This document shows, one piece after another, positions 3,217 through 34,546 of a DNA stretch of 34,553 nucleotides; the first letter of the stretch is position 1, and each line of letters starts with the position of its first letter. The stretch is from a virus. The translations under genes and the position numbers were made by a program. The stretch is from positions 1-34,553 of IMG/VR virus record IMGVR_UViG_3300011116_000272. The stretch is one strand, 5' to 3'. The notes below the pieces were generated by a model. That model searched no databases and was not told where the DNA came from. It saw only the letters and a list, made by a program, of their open reading frames with translations.

Positions 3217-3407
3217 TTAACGTCCCCTGATTTTTTAATAGAATTGCGTAATTGCATATGAGTAATTGCGCGTAGTTTTGCGTCAATCCTCTTTGTTTCC
3301 CTGTGCGCCATCTGAGCCACTTTGCGTTGCGCCCTGAGAGACCGTATTTCCTCCGGTGGTCGTGGACATATTAGTTTCCACCACAGCCTGTCTAGCCAGC
3401 GTAACAT
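3213..3407 (-). CDS. Small basic protein embedded in the 3' end of the nuclease gene
   Basis: A 64-residue, very basic protein (MLRWLDRLWWKLICPRPPEE...) with a Trp-rich N-terminus and a Lys/Arg-rich C-terminal half. It overlaps the upstream PD-(D/E)xK nuclease gene by 125 bases in a different frame. It is judged real because AGGGGAAGG lies just ahead of its ATG, the same GGGGA-type site used by several other early genes here, and its stop is coupled (ATGA) to the DUF6378-like gene. In the overlap the nuclease reads a low-complexity Thr/Gly/Ser/Gln tail, which would tolerate a second frame. Function unknown. Confidence 0.6.
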   Translation of the reverse strand: MLRWLDRLWWKLICPRPPEEIRSLRAQRKVAQMAHRETKRIDAKLRAITHMQLRNSIKKSGDVK

Positions 3408-3714
3408 TGCCTTCCCCTATTATTGATAGAAAGTCATCCAAACGCATAATTACAATAGGCTCTTTACGATCTGCCTTGGCTATGACTACGGGAGTTAACT
3501 TCTCCCCCGCAGCTTTGATTGCCTGATCCAGCCAAGTGTAAACAGCTATCTTCGCGTAACGCTTACACTCGAATAGCCATTTGCCAATGATGATGTCACC
3601 ACCACTGTCTCTGGTCTGGGTCAGATTGCGAGACGCAGAATAACCACGGTCCTTCAAGATGTTAACAACATCTCGCTCCCAATTATGTCCTTTGTCTCGC
3701 TGTGACTTGCTCAA
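3283..3714 (-). CDS. PD-(D/E)xK nuclease, Holliday-junction-resolvase-like
   Basis: A 143-residue protein. Residues 9-105 have the restriction-endonuclease-like fold pattern used by archaeal-type junction resolvases and phage nucleases: GHNWERDVV (Glu13), RDSGGDI (Asp40), and FECKRY (Glu49-x-Lys51). It would cut recombination or replication intermediates. It starts from TTG at 3714, in a TTGA overlap with the stop of the SSB-like gene. Residues 112-143 are Thr/Ser/Gly/Gln-rich and lie over the embedded small gene. The place after exonuclease, RecT and SSB-like genes supports a recombination role. Whether it resolves four-way junctions is inferred. Confidence 0.8.
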   Translation of the reverse strand: MSKSQRDKGHNWERDVVNILKDRGYSASRNLTQTRDSGGDIIIGKWLFECKRYAKIAVYTWLDQAIKAAGEKLTPVVIAKADRKEPIVIMRLDDFLSIIGEGNVTLARQAVVETNMSTTTGGNTVSQGATQSGSDGAQGNKED

Positions 3715-11526: not shown

Positions 11527-11979
11527 ATGGCTATTCTCAGATCTTATAAATGTATAGAACACGGATACTTTGACGCTTGGGAGGCGCTGTGCCCGCATGG
11601 CTGTCTGGACGTGGCAGTGGTTATTTTAAAAGCACCGTCTATGCGTGACTCAACCAAAGCAGCTAGAAGCAAGTCGGTAGATACCACAGCCAAAAGCCTG
11701 GCTAAAGAATTTAATATGACCAACATCAAGACTACCCGCGAGGGCGAGTTCCAAGAAGGTTATCACACCCGTAATAACCAATCCAAAGAACCAGCGCCCA
11801 GAGACTCGATCATGTGGGGCGGCGGCGGCAGATTCAACATGGCTTCCGTTTTATCAGGCAATGCTGTAAAGTCGGCGCATGGTGAACCGGTAGGAACCAA
11901 TATCAAGGATCTGAACCTGACCCAGGGGCCAAAGGCGGCAAGTTACTTTTCTGATCCAGAAGGGCTTAAAATCAAATGA
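11527..11979 (+). CDS. Hypothetical protein with a possible N-terminal zinc knuckle
   Basis: A 150-residue protein. Its N-terminus has YKCIEHGYFDAWEALCPHGC, a Cys/His spacing that suggests a small zinc ribbon. The remainder is polar, rich in Lys, Ser, Gly and Asn, and probably partly unfolded. The gene lies between terminase and portal in the late operon and overlaps the portal start by 4 bases (ATGA). It may help head assembly or packaging; no established family was recognised. Confidence 0.65.
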   Translation: MAILRSYKCIEHGYFDAWEALCPHGCLDVAVVILKAPSMRDSTKAARSKSVDTTAKSLAKEFNMTNIKTTREGEFQEGYHTRNNQSKEPAPRDSIMWGGGGRFNMASVLSGNAVKSAHGEPVGTNIKDLNLTQGPKAASYFSDPEGLKIK

Positions 11980-13571
11980 TAATCCCGTCAAACCCTATTG
12001 AACGCGAGATGTTTTATCTGGATCTAGTCCAGAAATGTTTTGTCTCGCGGGATATGCGGCGCGGAGATTATCAATCCCTTAGATCCTATTTTTTGTTTGG
12101 CGCGGGGCCGGAAGAAAGTCCCGCTGCTTACAACAAGATCTACAGCCATATTGACCAGCTCACGAGCTTTCTTTATTCGGCTGAAACAACCAGATTCAGT
12201 ATGAATCTTGGCGCATCTACACGTCCGTACCTGACAAGGTATATACCTGCTCTGACACAGAAACTGCATGATGAATGGAACAACTCAAACGCCGACCAAG
12301 TGTTTGGTCTTGCTCTGACTTGGGCGCTTGTGTTTAATTCAACCTTTATCAAACTTATTGTTAAAGACGGAAACATTAACCCGTTCTTTGTTGACCCAGG
12401 TACAGTCGGTGTCTTGCGTGAAGATGTTCCGCAAACTGATCGGCAAGAAGCTATTAGCCATAACTATTACATAACAAAATCAGAACTTTATCGTAGGCTT
12501 TATAGCCACCCTAAACGGGCAAGCATTATTGATAGAGTTAATTCACAACAGCATCAACCAACTCACATACCAAACGGTATTGACCGGATTGTTATGTCCC
12601 AGACCAACCCGACTATCTACGGCAATGTTAATCTGGACCTTTACGGGTTTAACCGTATGAAGGCAGAAGTTGCTGAAGATACTATTGAAATGACAGACCT
12701 ATACGTCTGGAACGATGAAGAAAACGATTACCAGATCGTAACCATTGCAGAGCCTGACGTTATTATCTATGACAGGCCGCATGGCGATATGTTCTTGAAA
12801 GGCGAGTTGCCTATCATACAAATCTGCCCCAAGCCTCAATATGATTATTATTGGGGCCAATCAGAAGTTCAAAAGCTGGTTGCTCTCCAGCAAATGCGTA
12901 ATCGGCGCATGACCGAGATTCTGGATCTTTTATCCAAACAGGTTAACCCGCCGACCAGCCTTATGGGCTTTACCGGCATATTGGATGAAAAGAATTTTGC
13001 GCTGAATAGAGCCGGTGGCTTGTTATCTACCGATATGCCTAATGCCAAAGTAGAACGCTTGGCTCCAACTTTGCCGCAAGACTTATACGCTCAGTTGCGT
13101 GAAATAGATTCAATGTTTGCTGAAGCTTCTGGAATTAGCAGCATTTTGTCCGGGCAAGGCGAACAAGGCGTTAGGTCTGCCGGTCATGCTTCCCAGCTTG
13201 CAAGGCTTGGATCAGCCAGAGCCAAGAAGAGCGCACTGGTTGTTGAAGATGCTTTGGAAAAGATGGCAACGCTCTACATGAAACTGATTCAAGTGTATGA
13301 CACTGATAAACTTTTGGATGTTGAGGACCAACCATTTATAGCTGAACAATTTACTAAGGATTATGTGGTAAAAGTGGACGCGCACTCAAATAGCCCGATC
13401 TTTATGGAAGATCTTCGCTCACTGGCGTTTAATCTTTACAAAGCTCAAGCTATTGATAAGGAAAGCCTTATCGAACTGCTCGACCCGCCAATGAAACAAA
13501 TGCTCAAAGAAAAGCTAAAAGTTATGGAGAAAAAGGCTGCGGCTAATCCTCCTCCACAGAAAGCAGGTTAA
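11976..13571 (+). CDS. Portal protein
   Basis: A 531-residue protein, within the size range of podovirus portals, placed directly after terminase and its small neighbours. It begins with MFYLDLVQKCFVSRDMRRGDYQSLRSYF and has typical portal features: an alpha/beta stem and wing region with many aromatic and proline residues, PKPQYDYYWGQSEVQKLVALQQMRNRR near 283-310, and a long helical segment EASGISSILSGQGEQGVRSAGHAS with following helices. The C-terminus is Lys/Pro-rich. Twelve copies should form the DNA entry ring at the capsid vertex. Assignment rests on position, size and the YYWGQSEV...QQMRNRR block. Confidence 0.85.
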   Translation: MIIPSNPIEREMFYLDLVQKCFVSRDMRRGDYQSLRSYFLFGAGPEESPAAYNKIYSHIDQLTSFLYSAETTRFSMNLGASTRPYLTRYIPALTQKLHDEWNNSNADQVFGLALTWALVFNSTFIKLIVKDGNINPFFVDPGTVGVLREDVPQTDRQEAISHNYYITKSELYRRLYSHPKRASIIDRVNSQQHQPTHIPNGIDRIVMSQTNPTIYGNVNLDLYGFNRMKAEVAEDTIEMTDLYVWNDEENDYQIVTIAEPDVIIYDRPHGDMFLKGELPIIQICPKPQYDYYWGQSEVQKLVALQQMRNRRMTEILDLLSKQVNPPTSLMGFTGILDEKNFALNRAGGLLSTDMPNAKVERLAPTLPQDLYAQLREIDSMFAEASGISSILSGQGEQGVRSAGHASQLARLGSARAKKSALVVEDALEKMATLYMKLIQVYDTDKLLDVEDQPFIAEQFTKDYVVKVDAHSNSPIFMEDLRSLAFNLYKAQAIDKESLIELLDPPMKQMLKEKLKVMEKKAAANPPPQKAG

Positions 13572-13572
13572 T

Positions 13573-13734
13573 ATGCCAGCTCAAACAGGTACTATGCCTA
13601 AAGGTGACCAGGCAAGAGCAAGTATTGACAGCTTCTCAAAACCAGCTAATCTACAGTATAAGGTTGTGAATATTCGCTCTCAGACCAAGCAGCCACAAGC
13701 TCGACAGGTCAACAGAGGAATGAAACGATCTTAG
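13573..13734 (+). CDS. Small basic protein between portal and scaffold
   Basis: A 53-residue protein, MPAQTGTMPKGDQARASIDS then a Lys/Arg/Gln-rich tail ending RQVNRGMKRS. The ATG lies one base after the portal stop. It is strongly basic and may bind nucleic acid or the acidic faces of head proteins. No family recognised. Confidence 0.5.
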   Translation: MPAQTGTMPKGDQARASIDSFSKPANLQYKVVNIRSQTKQPQARQVNRGMKRS

Positions 13735-13763: not shown

Positions 13764-13799
13764 ATGGCACGTCGTAAGGGTCGCGGTAAGCGCAAGTGA
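13764..13799 (+). CDS. Micro-gene 1: 11-residue Arg/Lys-rich peptide
   Basis: ATG at 13764 opens MARRKGRGKRK and a stop. GGAG (13752-13755) stands 8 bases ahead, ideal for translation. Eight of eleven residues are Arg, Lys or Gly with 7 positive charges. The stop codon touches a terminator hairpin (13799-13823). It may be a DNA- or RNA-binding peptide, a leader peptide, or chance; the neighbouring peptide of almost the same composition makes chance less likely. Confidence 0.45.
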   Translation: MARRKGRGKRK

Positions 13800-13823
13800 A
13801 GTTTGGCTTAGGCCAAGCTTTTT
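13799..13823 (+). terminator. Rho-independent terminator-like hairpin
   Basis: AAGTTTGGC (13799-13807), loop TTAG, GCCAAGCTT (13812-13820): a 9-bp stem with one G-T pair, followed by a T-run (13819-13823). It begins on the last base of the micro-gene stop codon. Such a placement can end transcripts after the portal block or act as an attenuator controlled by ribosomes on the micro-gene. Confidence 0.6.
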
Positions 13824-13857
13824 AAACAATTCAACCCCTCAAATTCAGGAGCGCATC

Positions 13858-13890
13858 ATGCGTCGTAAAGGTCGTAAGGCTCGTCGTTAA
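13858..13890 (+). CDS. Micro-gene 2: 10-residue Arg/Lys-rich peptide
   Basis: ATG at 13858 opens MRRKGRKARR and a TAA stop. AGGAG (13847-13851) stands 6 bases ahead. The peptide shares the RRKGR core with micro-gene 1. Again a hairpin follows immediately (13896-13914). Highly basic peptides this short resemble arginine-rich nucleic-acid-binding motifs and the tiny basic DNA-condensing proteins of microviruses, but no homology can be claimed from ten residues. Confidence 0.45.
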   Translation: MRRKGRKARR

Positions 13891-13895
13891 CTCAT

Positions 13896-13946
13896 AAGCG
13901 GGTCAGTCCCGTTTAATGATTCGAGTTTCCCCGGAGGGGAGGGAAA
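13896..13946 (+). terminator. Two further hairpins ahead of the scaffold block
   Basis: AAGCGGG (13896-13902), loop TCAGT, CCCGTTT (13908-13914) forms a 7-bp stem with one G-T pair and ends in TTT. CCCC (13929-13932), loop GGA, GGGG (13936-13939) forms a second, tight stem, with an alternative pairing TTTCCC/GGGAAA over 13926-13946. With the terminator at 13799 they make a row of three hairpins in 150 bases between portal and scaffold genes. Confidence 0.45.
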
Positions 13947-13965
13947 TCCTAAAAATATCCCCCAC

Positions 13966-13994
13966 TTGACATTTTACAGATTTTATCTGTTAAA
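13966..13994 (+). promoter_or_regulatory. Promoter-like element with an internal palindrome
   Basis: TTGACA at 13966-13971 is a perfect -35 box, with only weak -10 candidates about 16-18 bases on (GTTAAA region). A perfect inverted repeat ACAGAT-TTT-ATCTGT (13976-13990) fills the spacer and could be an operator. A start near 14001 would give an almost leaderless message for the gene at 14004, whose ribosome site is weak. Confidence 0.4.
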
Positions 13995-14003
13995 GTGAGT
14001 CCC

Positions 14004-14480
14004 ATGGCAAACGAGCAACTCATGGCCCTTATGGGGCAACAAGGTGGTCAACCTCAAGGCGGCATTTCAATGTCCCCTGGAGCTGATGGTGCATCTGCAC
14101 AGCCACCCATGACTTCTCCTATGTCAACTCCTGAACCAAAGTCCGGGCAACGCGAATCGGCGTTAGTCAACGTGAGCATGGCTCTAGACCTTATCGAGCA
14201 GTCCCTTCCTGCTATTGGAAGCGAGACACCGGAAGGCCAAAAACTTATTTCTGCTTTGAACAATCTTACTTCTGTTCTTGGGCCTAAGAAACAAAAGGCC
14301 GGAGAACTTCAGTCTGCTGAGATTCTTCAGCTTCTACAGAATCTTCCTAATGCTGGTGGTGGTTCTCCTGGAGCCAGGACAATCTCTGCCGCTGGTCCGA
14401 ATCTCGGACAAATGACGCCGCCACCTCAAGGTGGTGGAGCCCCACCAATGCCGCCTATGGGCGGTCAGATGCCTATGTAA
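14004..14480 (+). CDS. Low-complexity Gly/Pro/Met-rich head protein
   Basis: A 158-residue protein. The ends are low complexity (Gln/Gly/Pro/Met-rich: GQQGGQPQGG, and PPPQGGGAPPMPPMGG at the C-terminus) and the middle (about 45-115) is helical, SALVNVSMALDLIEQSLPAI. Such proteins sit between portal and scaffold in many podovirus-like genomes and have no firm role; assembly chaperone or minor scaffold are options. ATG at 14004 is chosen over an in-frame GTG at 13995. Ribosome site poor, hence the interest of the promoter just upstream. Confidence 0.7.
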   Translation: MANEQLMALMGQQGGQPQGGISMSPGADGASAQPPMTSPMSTPEPKSGQRESALVNVSMALDLIEQSLPAIGSETPEGQKLISALNNLTSVLGPKKQKAGELQSAEILQLLQNLPNAGGGSPGARTISAAGPNLGQMTPPPQGGGAPPMPPMGGQMPM

Positions 14481-15283: not shown

Positions 15284-16306
15284 ATGGCTATCGGTGGGGG
15301 CATTGTCCCAGCATCCGGCTCTACGCAGTATAATGAATTAACCTACGTCACAAGGCGTGCGTTTATTCCTAAGATGATTGTACAGATTTATAACAGTACA
15401 CCTCTTATGGCTGCTCTTATTGCTAACTCACAAACCGCTACTGGCGGTGTTAGCTCCGTAACGGTTCCTGTCCAAGGCGCACAGTTTGTAAACGCGCAAT
15501 GGTCAGATTATTCCGGTTCATTCACCCAACCTTCTGTTCAGCAAGGTGCTTTCAACGCTGAGTTCAATCTCAAGCTTATGATTGCTCCCGTGCCGTTCCT
15601 TGGTATGGAAGGCGCAGTACAGCAAGATCATGCAATTATTCCGCTGATTGAAGCTCGTATGAATGACGCAACAAACGTCATGCTCGACGGTATGGCTTAT
15701 GCTTTGTACAACAACACATCAAACACGCAGCAATTTATCGGACTGCCAGCCGCTGTTGATGATGGTACAACGTCTGGTGCTGCTACCTACGGCAACATTA
15801 CCCGTTCATCCACCCAGAATTCATGGTGGAGATCAAAGGTATATGCCGCTGGCTCTGTCAACCCGACTCGTCAAAACGTCTTGCAATACATTTCCGGCAC
15901 TGTGAAGAACGGCGCTGAAGTACCTAGCTTTGGCGTTTGCGGCTTTGGAACATGGACGCTTCTGGCTCAAGATTATGTTGGTCAGGAACAATATGTCATC
16001 ACTCCTGGTGGTGGTTTTGATGGTGATGCTAACGGACCTTCTGCTGCGTTCCGCGCTCTGATGGTTGCTGGTGTTCCTATCTATCCAGATCCGTATTGCC
16101 CTGAAGGCACGGTGTACTTCTTGAATACTAACTATCTTTCGCTCTACATCCATGAGCAAGGGCAGTTTGTGTTCACCGGCTTTGAATCCACGCTCCCGAA
16201 CTGGCAGATTGGTTATGTCGGCGCGGTCTTGACAATTGCAGAATTGGTCAACACCAAGCCTAAAGCCATGACAAAGGTTACGGGCTATAATTCAATCAGC
16301 CTGTAA
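15284..16306 (+). CDS. Major capsid protein
   Basis: A 340-residue protein, suited to an HK97-fold coat protein. The N-terminus (AIGGGIVPASGSTQYNELTY) is followed by helix TRRAFIPKMIVQIYNSTPLM, a beta-rich E-loop-like SSVTVPVQGAQFVNAQWSDYSG, and a long region with VLDG..ALYNN-type helix (MNDATNVMLDGMAYALYNNT). It ends in a beta/alpha segment. Its place after the scaffold-like gene and before small decoration-like genes supports the call, and GAGG stands ahead of the ATG. This is the likely main shell protein of the head. Confidence 0.9.
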   Translation: MAIGGGIVPASGSTQYNELTYVTRRAFIPKMIVQIYNSTPLMAALIANSQTATGGVSSVTVPVQGAQFVNAQWSDYSGSFTQPSVQQGAFNAEFNLKLMIAPVPFLGMEGAVQQDHAIIPLIEARMNDATNVMLDGMAYALYNNTSNTQQFIGLPAAVDDGTTSGAATYGNITRSSTQNSWWRSKVYAAGSVNPTRQNVLQYISGTVKNGAEVPSFGVCGFGTWTLLAQDYVGQEQYVITPGGGFDGDANGPSAAFRALMVAGVPIYPDPYCPEGTVYFLNTNYLSLYIHEQGQFVFTGFESTLPNWQIGYVGAVLTIAELVNTKPKAMTKVTGYNSISL

Positions 16307-34309: not shown

Positions 34310-34546
34310 GTGTCTAAAAAGGATAAACCATCACTGTCCGTTGGCAGGGGCGAAAAGCTCTCTGTCAAGGCCGGTAGTGGTCTTACTGCTAAGGGACGGG
34401 CTAAATATAATCGCGCTACCGGAAGTAATCTCAAAGCCCCTACCAAAGACAAGAATAGTCCTAGACATAAAAGTTTCTGTGCCAGATCACGGTCTTGGAA
34501 GGGTGAGCGAGGTAAAGCAGCTCGCAGACGTTGGGGTTGCAGGTAA
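34310..34546 (+). CDS. DUF6321-like small basic phage protein
   Basis: A 78-residue protein started from GTG. The block KAGSGLTAKGRAKYNRATGSNLKAP (split here as AGSGLTAKGRAKYNR and ATGSNLKAP, about 21-44) followed by PRHKSFCARSRS and a Cys-containing, Arg-rich end (ARRRWGC) is the pattern I associate with DUF6321, a widespread phage family of unknown function. Basic throughout, so nucleic-acid binding is possible. The next frame (ATG at 34546) begins on its stop codon and is cut by the window end. Confidence 0.8.
   Translation: MSKKDKPSLSVGRGEKLSVKAGSGLTAKGRAKYNRATGSNLKAPTKDKNSPRHKSFCARSRSWKGERGKAARRRWGCR

Follow-up and report, generated by a model that had tools for sequence, protein, structure and literature searches.

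Tandem micro-genes behind the portal gene

The window analysed here is a virus record taken over its whole length of 34,553 bases, whose plus strand encodes terminase, portal, capsid and tail proteins. Behind the portal gene lie a small conserved gene, ORF1, and two very short reading frames, micro-genes B and C, followed by two predicted RNA structures and a promoter-like element (Table 1). PHROG searches returned no match for either ORF1 or the 158-aa gene downstream. An ORF of 45–60 aa was observed behind the portal in this group, with a shared GDQPRA / LQYRV pattern and a basic C-terminus. At the far end of the window, a 78-aa basic protein (34310–34546) ending in KGERGKAARRRWGCR matched several PHROGs of unknown function, among them phrog_10346, at their ends.

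Table 1. Features of the portal–capsid region of the window (SD, Shine-Dalgarno sequence; MCP, major capsid protein)
Feature	Position	Strand	Description
Portal protein gene	11976..13571	+	531 aa; PHROG portal/head-tail adaptor matches; syntenic anchor
ORF1	13573..13734	+	53 aa (MPAQTGTMPKGDQARAS...NRGMKRS); small conserved gene between portal and micro-genes; basic C-terminus
Micro-gene B	13764..13799	+	MARRKGRGKRK, 11 aa; SD GGAG upstream
Terminator-like hairpin	13800..13823	+	AGTTTGGC-TTAG-GCCAAGCT-TTTT; behind micro-gene B; read from sequence
Micro-gene C	13858..13890	+	MRRKGRKARR, 10 aa; SD AGGAG upstream
Hairpin	13896..13914	+	AAGCGGG-TCAGT-CCCGTTT; behind micro-gene C
H-type RNA pseudoknot	13925..13962	+	S1 13925-13931/13941-13947; S2 13936-13940/13958-13962; A-rich linker 13948-13957
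TTGACA	13966..13971	+	-35-like; ahead of next gene in most lineages
Gene downstream	14004..14480	+	158 aa; "scaffold region" in the initial annotation
MCP gene	15284..16306	+	PHROG 9953, E 2.8e-33; yardstick for codon choice and SD strength

Micro-gene B reads ATG GCA CGT CGT AAG GGT CGC GGT AAG CGC AAG TGA and micro-gene C reads ATG CGT CGT AAA GGT CGT AAG GCT CGT CGT TAA, exactly the two Arg/Lys-rich frames with ATG, SD and stop that the initial annotation had described. When both strands of the 34.5 kb window were scanned for ATG-initiated ORFs of 8–26 aa in which R+K make up at least 50% and which have an SD-like word, these two were the sole matches. Shuffling the window 100 times with dinucleotides preserved produced no such ORF, and shuffling the gap alone 2000 times produced 0.0015 per gap and never two in one gap, which bears out the earlier judgement that the pair is improbable by chance. 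Many relatives have three micro-ORFs, with an additional first peptide resembling MYKSVKRSRRSRRK; this first micro-gene is missing from the lineage of the window (the window, L002 and L003), where it has been lost. A start at MEAHMRRKGRKARR was dismissed because its GGAGG is the SD that serves the inner ATG.

The hairpin behind micro-gene B is a feature of the window lineage; its T-run version is not generally conserved, and it was absent from the consensus-scan output for the window. The same scan found no consensus -10 for the TTGACA in the window. Palindromes such as GTTTGTA-TGTGT-TACAAAC were observed just behind TTGACA in L157, L159, L163, L178 and their relatives, where they overlap the presumed -10 and look operator-like, as for a regulated head-gene promoter.

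Conservation, selection and expression signature

Relatives were collected via the portal and comprised 69 IMG/VR loci, 80 members of a portal alignment (some of them shared), 12 genome contigs and two deposited Manatee Spring phages, MW202825 and MW202753. The genome contigs are MAG contigs of many phyla, a spread that is probably due to binning and on which no host assignment is based, and the search turned up no cultured phage of the group. The initial annotation had proposed to inspect the syntenic portal–scaffold gaps of relatives, and tiny basic ORFs were indeed found there: where 450 nt or more were available behind the portal (137 loci), 129 loci had at least one and 112 at least two by loose criteria, under which a few extra ORFs lacking an SD are chance. 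Each locus holds one to three micro-genes, encoding peptides of 9–17 aa and mostly of 10–15 aa. Typical sets are MYKSVKRSRRSRRK with MRRKGRKSKR and MRRKGRKARR, or MYKKMKRGRKTRR with MARKARKGRKGRK; counterparts of micro-gene B at the same place read M(A)RRKGRKxKR or MARKARKHKR, and MRRKGRKARR and MARKARKGRKARK are both found among the family peptides. In L026, a single in-frame hybrid of the first and last micro-genes is present, MYKSMMRMKGRKARR (MYKSM-MRMKGRKARR). The distant relative L062 carries four tiny basic ORFs at 3248–3630 (MARRHRRSKRK, MNEPINAAARPARLKGARTRKHGR, MFDLLDARPARLKGYRKQRR and MNNEYPTHGHFSERKRKRDRRGRK). One Cys was seen near the end of a micro-peptide in L142, L144, L156, L170, L177 and L139 (GCK, GCR, KCRK, MCK, VCK and KCRR), which may reflect chance CGY to TGY changes or some function.

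On a tree of 71 dereplicated portals, 67 were followed by an SD-preceded micro-gene, a slightly low count since GTG starts were left out (L184 has GTG-TACAAA...), and the portals with micro-genes span identities down to about 40%. The other four were a clade of two (L042/L201), one with a 21-aa variant, MAYKMPMKPMKRPPMRDGKRS (L047/L197), and one very distant row (L203). The existence of three lineages without micro-genes indicates that the function is dispensable or replaceable.

A location-blind test searched 2.9 million viral contigs for DNA encoding MARK-x-RK-x-RK-x-RK-stop and found at least 115 copies. Among the matches listed, 102 of 115 followed a portal relative in the same orientation at a distance of 148–409 nt; of the 13 remaining copies, 12 were no more than 600 nt from a contig end, and one (L276) had the usual micro-ORF pair. 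Nine different DNA spellings of the exact peptide MRRKGRKARR occurred over 59 viral contig stretches, and two other peptide forms were present in five stretches, which, where read, all lay behind a portal relative (L062 and L325 being known contigs). An SD-anchored wide pattern was too strict and gave no match in the viral contigs. No comparable ORFs were found in the portal–capsid block of more distant MCP relatives (Mx9, BUCT555, Manatee Spring MW202803 and a TM7 phage), which have a related capsid protein and a different portal. As far as tested, the family seems limited to this portal group. The micro-genes are members of a new family of tandem microgenes, and their carriers are a large group of uncultured podovirus-like phages that keep them between portal and scaffold.

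Selection on the frames was assessed in 41 nearest-neighbour pairs, where 178 nucleotide differences were distributed over codon positions 1, 2 and 3 as 34, 28 and 116. Amino-acid changes numbered 37 versus 117 expected under random placement, about one third of expectation, so that the proposed comparison of synonymous and non-synonymous change also came out on the side of coding. Changes between Arg/Lys and other residues numbered 7 versus 73 expected; basic ORFs were chosen for their charge, which biases this count toward conserved charge, and the bias is small, with nearly all loci having such ORFs. Pairwise pN/pS ranged from 0.22 to 0.81 when read in the true frame; the other frames gave values above 0.97, with frame 2 of the class mid-11 (0.58) as the exception. 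Among relatives, R and K interchange freely and the charge is retained. R makes up 38% and K 29% of the composition, followed by G, A and S as spacers; R+K account for 66% of residues after Met, D for 0.1%, E is absent and there are hardly any hydrophobic residues.

At the DNA level, MRRKGRKARR varies rather little in its most frequent spelling (20 and 16 of 49 distinct contexts), as would be expected of a motif conserved as DNA or RNA that merely happens to read as basic ORFs, such as a site with CGTAAG repeats for protein binding or packaging. Such a non-coding motif is hardly conceivable given the third-position excess of substitutions, the start, SD and stop retained throughout, the in-frame insertions (MRKGRKGRKARR) and the frame kept across the fusion in L026. 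Purifying selection is shown, by comparison among relatives, on the reading frames, their start signals, their site and their Arg/Lys character, and the micro-genes are almost certainly genuine translated genes.

The codon choice and start signals of the micro-genes resemble those of the capsid gene or exceed them. The share of CGT/CGC among Arg codons was 88% in micro-genes, 84% in MCP, 66% in scaffold, 63% in portal and 57% in terminase genes. Median SD duplex energies were -8.0 kcal/mol for micro-genes, the strongest of the genes compared, -5.7 for MCP and -1.9 for portal, and the micro-gene values were above the portal's in 62 of 66 loci; the other genes were scored at the start with the best SD, making the comparison, if anything, conservative. 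Capsid-like Arg codons and the strongest SDs imply an abundant product, and we read them as signs of high expression rather than proof of it.

The initial annotation regarded the frames as genuine genes that escape annotation. The conserved syntenic frames, purifying selection, strong SDs and capsid-like codons speak for the first part, and the second holds for both MW202825 and MW202753, in which the micro-ORFs are left out. Hypothetical minus-strand genes were deposited over the micro-gene region in MW202825.1 (L071, 7779–8039) and MW202753.1 (L072, 4740–5038), and these are probably false calls. Our literature search found no paper describing this family, its synteny or its role; an earlier listing in a catalogue (e.g., Fremin et al. 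2022) is possible. The GMSC 2024 catalogue reaches down to about 9–10 aa (PMC11364881), and this catalogue and that of Fremin et al. may contain some of these sequences.

RNA structures beside the micro-genes

In relatives, the hairpin behind the last micro-gene reads AACGGG-TTAGA-CCCGTT, with pair changes such as ACCGG/CCGGT. The pseudoknot recurs with a stem 1 of 4–8 bp, a stem 2 of 5–8 bp in which the stem-1 loop pairs with a strand further downstream, and an A-rich linker similar to TAAAAATA. Both stems change wholesale between lineages with pairing retained (TGGCAGTT/AACTGCCA, TGGCGGTT/AACCGCCA, TGACGGGG/CCCCGTCA and GGAGGGG/CCCCTCC), and the best pseudoknot score averaged 28.8 versus 12.2 in shuffles. 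As the MAFFT alignment across lineages misplaced stem 1, pair counts were replaced by a partner-swap test, in which partners swapped between loci paired at 51–57% over 16 stem-1 and 20 stem-2 core types; the 100% pairing of own partners is by construction, and the swapped value and the shuffle comparison are the informative ones. The copy in the window is among the weaker ones and only mildly stable (z -1.7), energy folding preferring a nested alternative. An Rfam 15 covariance-model scan of the window gave no match in the pseudoknot region, a result to be read in the light of the incomplete scoring of pseudoknots by Rfam models.

The pseudoknot precedes TTGACA in most lineages and stands directly before the start of the next gene in L007, L120, L124, L125 and L148; its position and covariation make it a candidate control element for the scaffold gene. 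It resembles the H-type pseudoknot upstream of a phage gene in T4 gene 32 mRNA, which is an autogenous operator (PMC535899), but differs in standing before a head gene, in its strongly covarying stems and A-rich linker, and in having no known repressor. Nine aligned three-gene loci (e.g., L012, L007 and L030) all have GGGGAC between the first and second micro-genes, and a C-rich stretch, CCCCTC, stands before the last micro-gene, with possible long-range pairing around the middle gene. Such GGGG/CCCC pairing around micro-gene B was spotted by eye and had insufficient support.

The pseudoknot was present in 65 of 73 loci with at least two micro-genes versus 3 of 19 with one (Fisher 1.6e-9, uncorrected for relatedness), a comparison that treats related loci as independent and counts some bulged versions as misses. 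The pseudoknot and the micro-genes may be linked in evolution. Together with the covarying pseudoknot and hairpin directly behind the last micro-gene in most loci, this association would suit RNA-binding regulators, in which the peptides bind the adjoining structures and control termination or translation of scaffold and capsid in the manner of N; Arg-rich peptides are classical RNA binders, and the micro-peptides share with lambda N an Arg-rich stretch of about ten residues and a nearby RNA structure. However, the N protein has a long further part for antitermination, contacting RNA polymerase, whereas the micro-peptides are the basic stretch alone, ending after 9–17 residues, and ten residues are too few for such a part. 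There is also no obligate link to the pseudoknot: most single-gene loci are without the pseudoknot, and the peptide is kept in L139, L147, L152, L156, L170 and others, which indicates that the peptides do not need the pseudoknot and argues against action solely via that RNA. A single specific RNA target is hard to reconcile with free R/K exchange and with loci that encode two or three different peptides, and the capsid-like codons and very strong SDs better suit an abundant product. We consider RNA regulation of this kind unlikely.

The same neighbourhood of very short ORFs, strong SDs and adjacent RNA structures could also be that of leader peptides or attenuators, in which translation rather than the peptide matters and the structures respond to it, all the more as basic nascent chains can slow ribosomes. 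We find this highly improbable: selection acts on the amino acids, R and K codons are swapped freely so that no particular tRNA is read, the Arg codons are common and fast, several ORFs stand in tandem, and the ORFs persist where the structures have been lost.

A possible role as genome counter-ions

Considering that charge is kept while R and K exchange, which is the signature expected of unspecific polyanion binding, and that location in the head-gene block, codon usage and SDs speak for abundant synthesis along with the capsid genes, we favour DNA binding at packaging. The peptides may well bind and neutralise phage DNA in packaging and probably enter the capsid with it, a proposal that we put forward tentatively. 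They would be translated at a high level late in infection, each product being an unstructured polycation, about two thirds Arg+Lys with no acidic residues, that would bind nucleic acid without sequence specificity. The peptide would then coat or neutralise the phage DNA as a counter-ion while it is packaged and would probably be carried into the capsid with it. Strong positive charge, head-gene location and a signature of abundant expression, as would be looked for in a DNA-condensing peptide, were all found. The median charge per locus is 16 R+K, which means that many hundreds of copies would be required to neutralise a useful part of the 35-kb genome. Nucleic-acid binding is what we infer from composition, and the presence of the peptides in the virion is conjecture. 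The initial annotation thought a virion-packaged DNA-condensing peptide or an RNA-binding antiterminator-type peptide conceivable; between abundant nucleic-acid binding and regulation of the adjoining RNA, the sequence evidence leans to the former. DNA, RNA or an acidic protein partner such as scaffold are targets that sequence does not separate.

A protein partner is assumed when the peptides are seen as assembly cofactors, polycations that attach to an acidic protein of the head, be it scaffold, portal or capsid, and aid procapsid nucleation or maturation like a detached basic tail of the scaffold. The location between portal and scaffold is compatible with such a role, as are the likewise basic ends of ORF1 (GMKRS, RAMRRS, YGRMKR), including the ORF1 of one lineage without micro-genes, which ends in GRMKR. 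The peptides have no conserved hydrophobic or acidic positions suggesting a specific protein interface, and we regard this role as quite unlikely.

For neutralisation of DNA, several known systems offer partial parallels. Microvirus J proteins are small, strongly basic, DNA-binding products of head genes, roughly 25–40 aa long, of ssDNA phages, with a hydrophobic part that binds the capsid. The analogy drawn in the initial annotation stands for charge only; at 9–17 aa, the micro-peptides are without J-like length or a C-terminal hydrophobic part. Adenovirus mu (protein X) is an Arg-rich peptide with a mature form of 19 aa, present at 100–300 copies per virion, which condenses DNA and is cut by protease from a 79-aa precursor (PMC7998265). 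The likeness lies in the very short Arg-rich peptide; mu condenses a dsDNA genome in the virion, whereas the micro-peptides are known from genes alone, each having its own gene of 10–15 codons, often two or three in tandem, in an unrelated virus. In T4, lysines of internal proteins contact the phosphates and, together with polyamines, offset part of their charge, which has been proposed to speed packaging (PMC3012670). The T4 internal head proteins are likewise basic and belong to a tailed phage. They are packaged with the DNA and are full-sized, folded proteins with a capsid-targeting sequence, whereas the micro-peptides, known as genes, have about 10 aa, too short for testing a sequence relation.

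With 9–17 codons, the micro-genes rank with the shortest gene families for which selection is clearly evident, and they are kept across portals differing by up to 60%. They are invisible to gene callers, profile libraries and trypsin-based proteomics, the last because trypsin would cut the peptides to fragments of one to three residues. Conserved synteny combined with codon-position substitution patterns offers a route to more such genes. If the peptides neutralise packaged DNA, tailed phages would have their own encoded counterpart of protamine, with consequences for our understanding of what determines genome pressure and the speed of packaging. It is also possible, if rather doubtful, that two or three protamine-like peptides of 10–15 residues serve as dedicated genome counter-ions of the capsid with their dosage (or that of the scaffold) set by the pseudoknot; if true, this would be a kind of head component undescribed for tailed phages.
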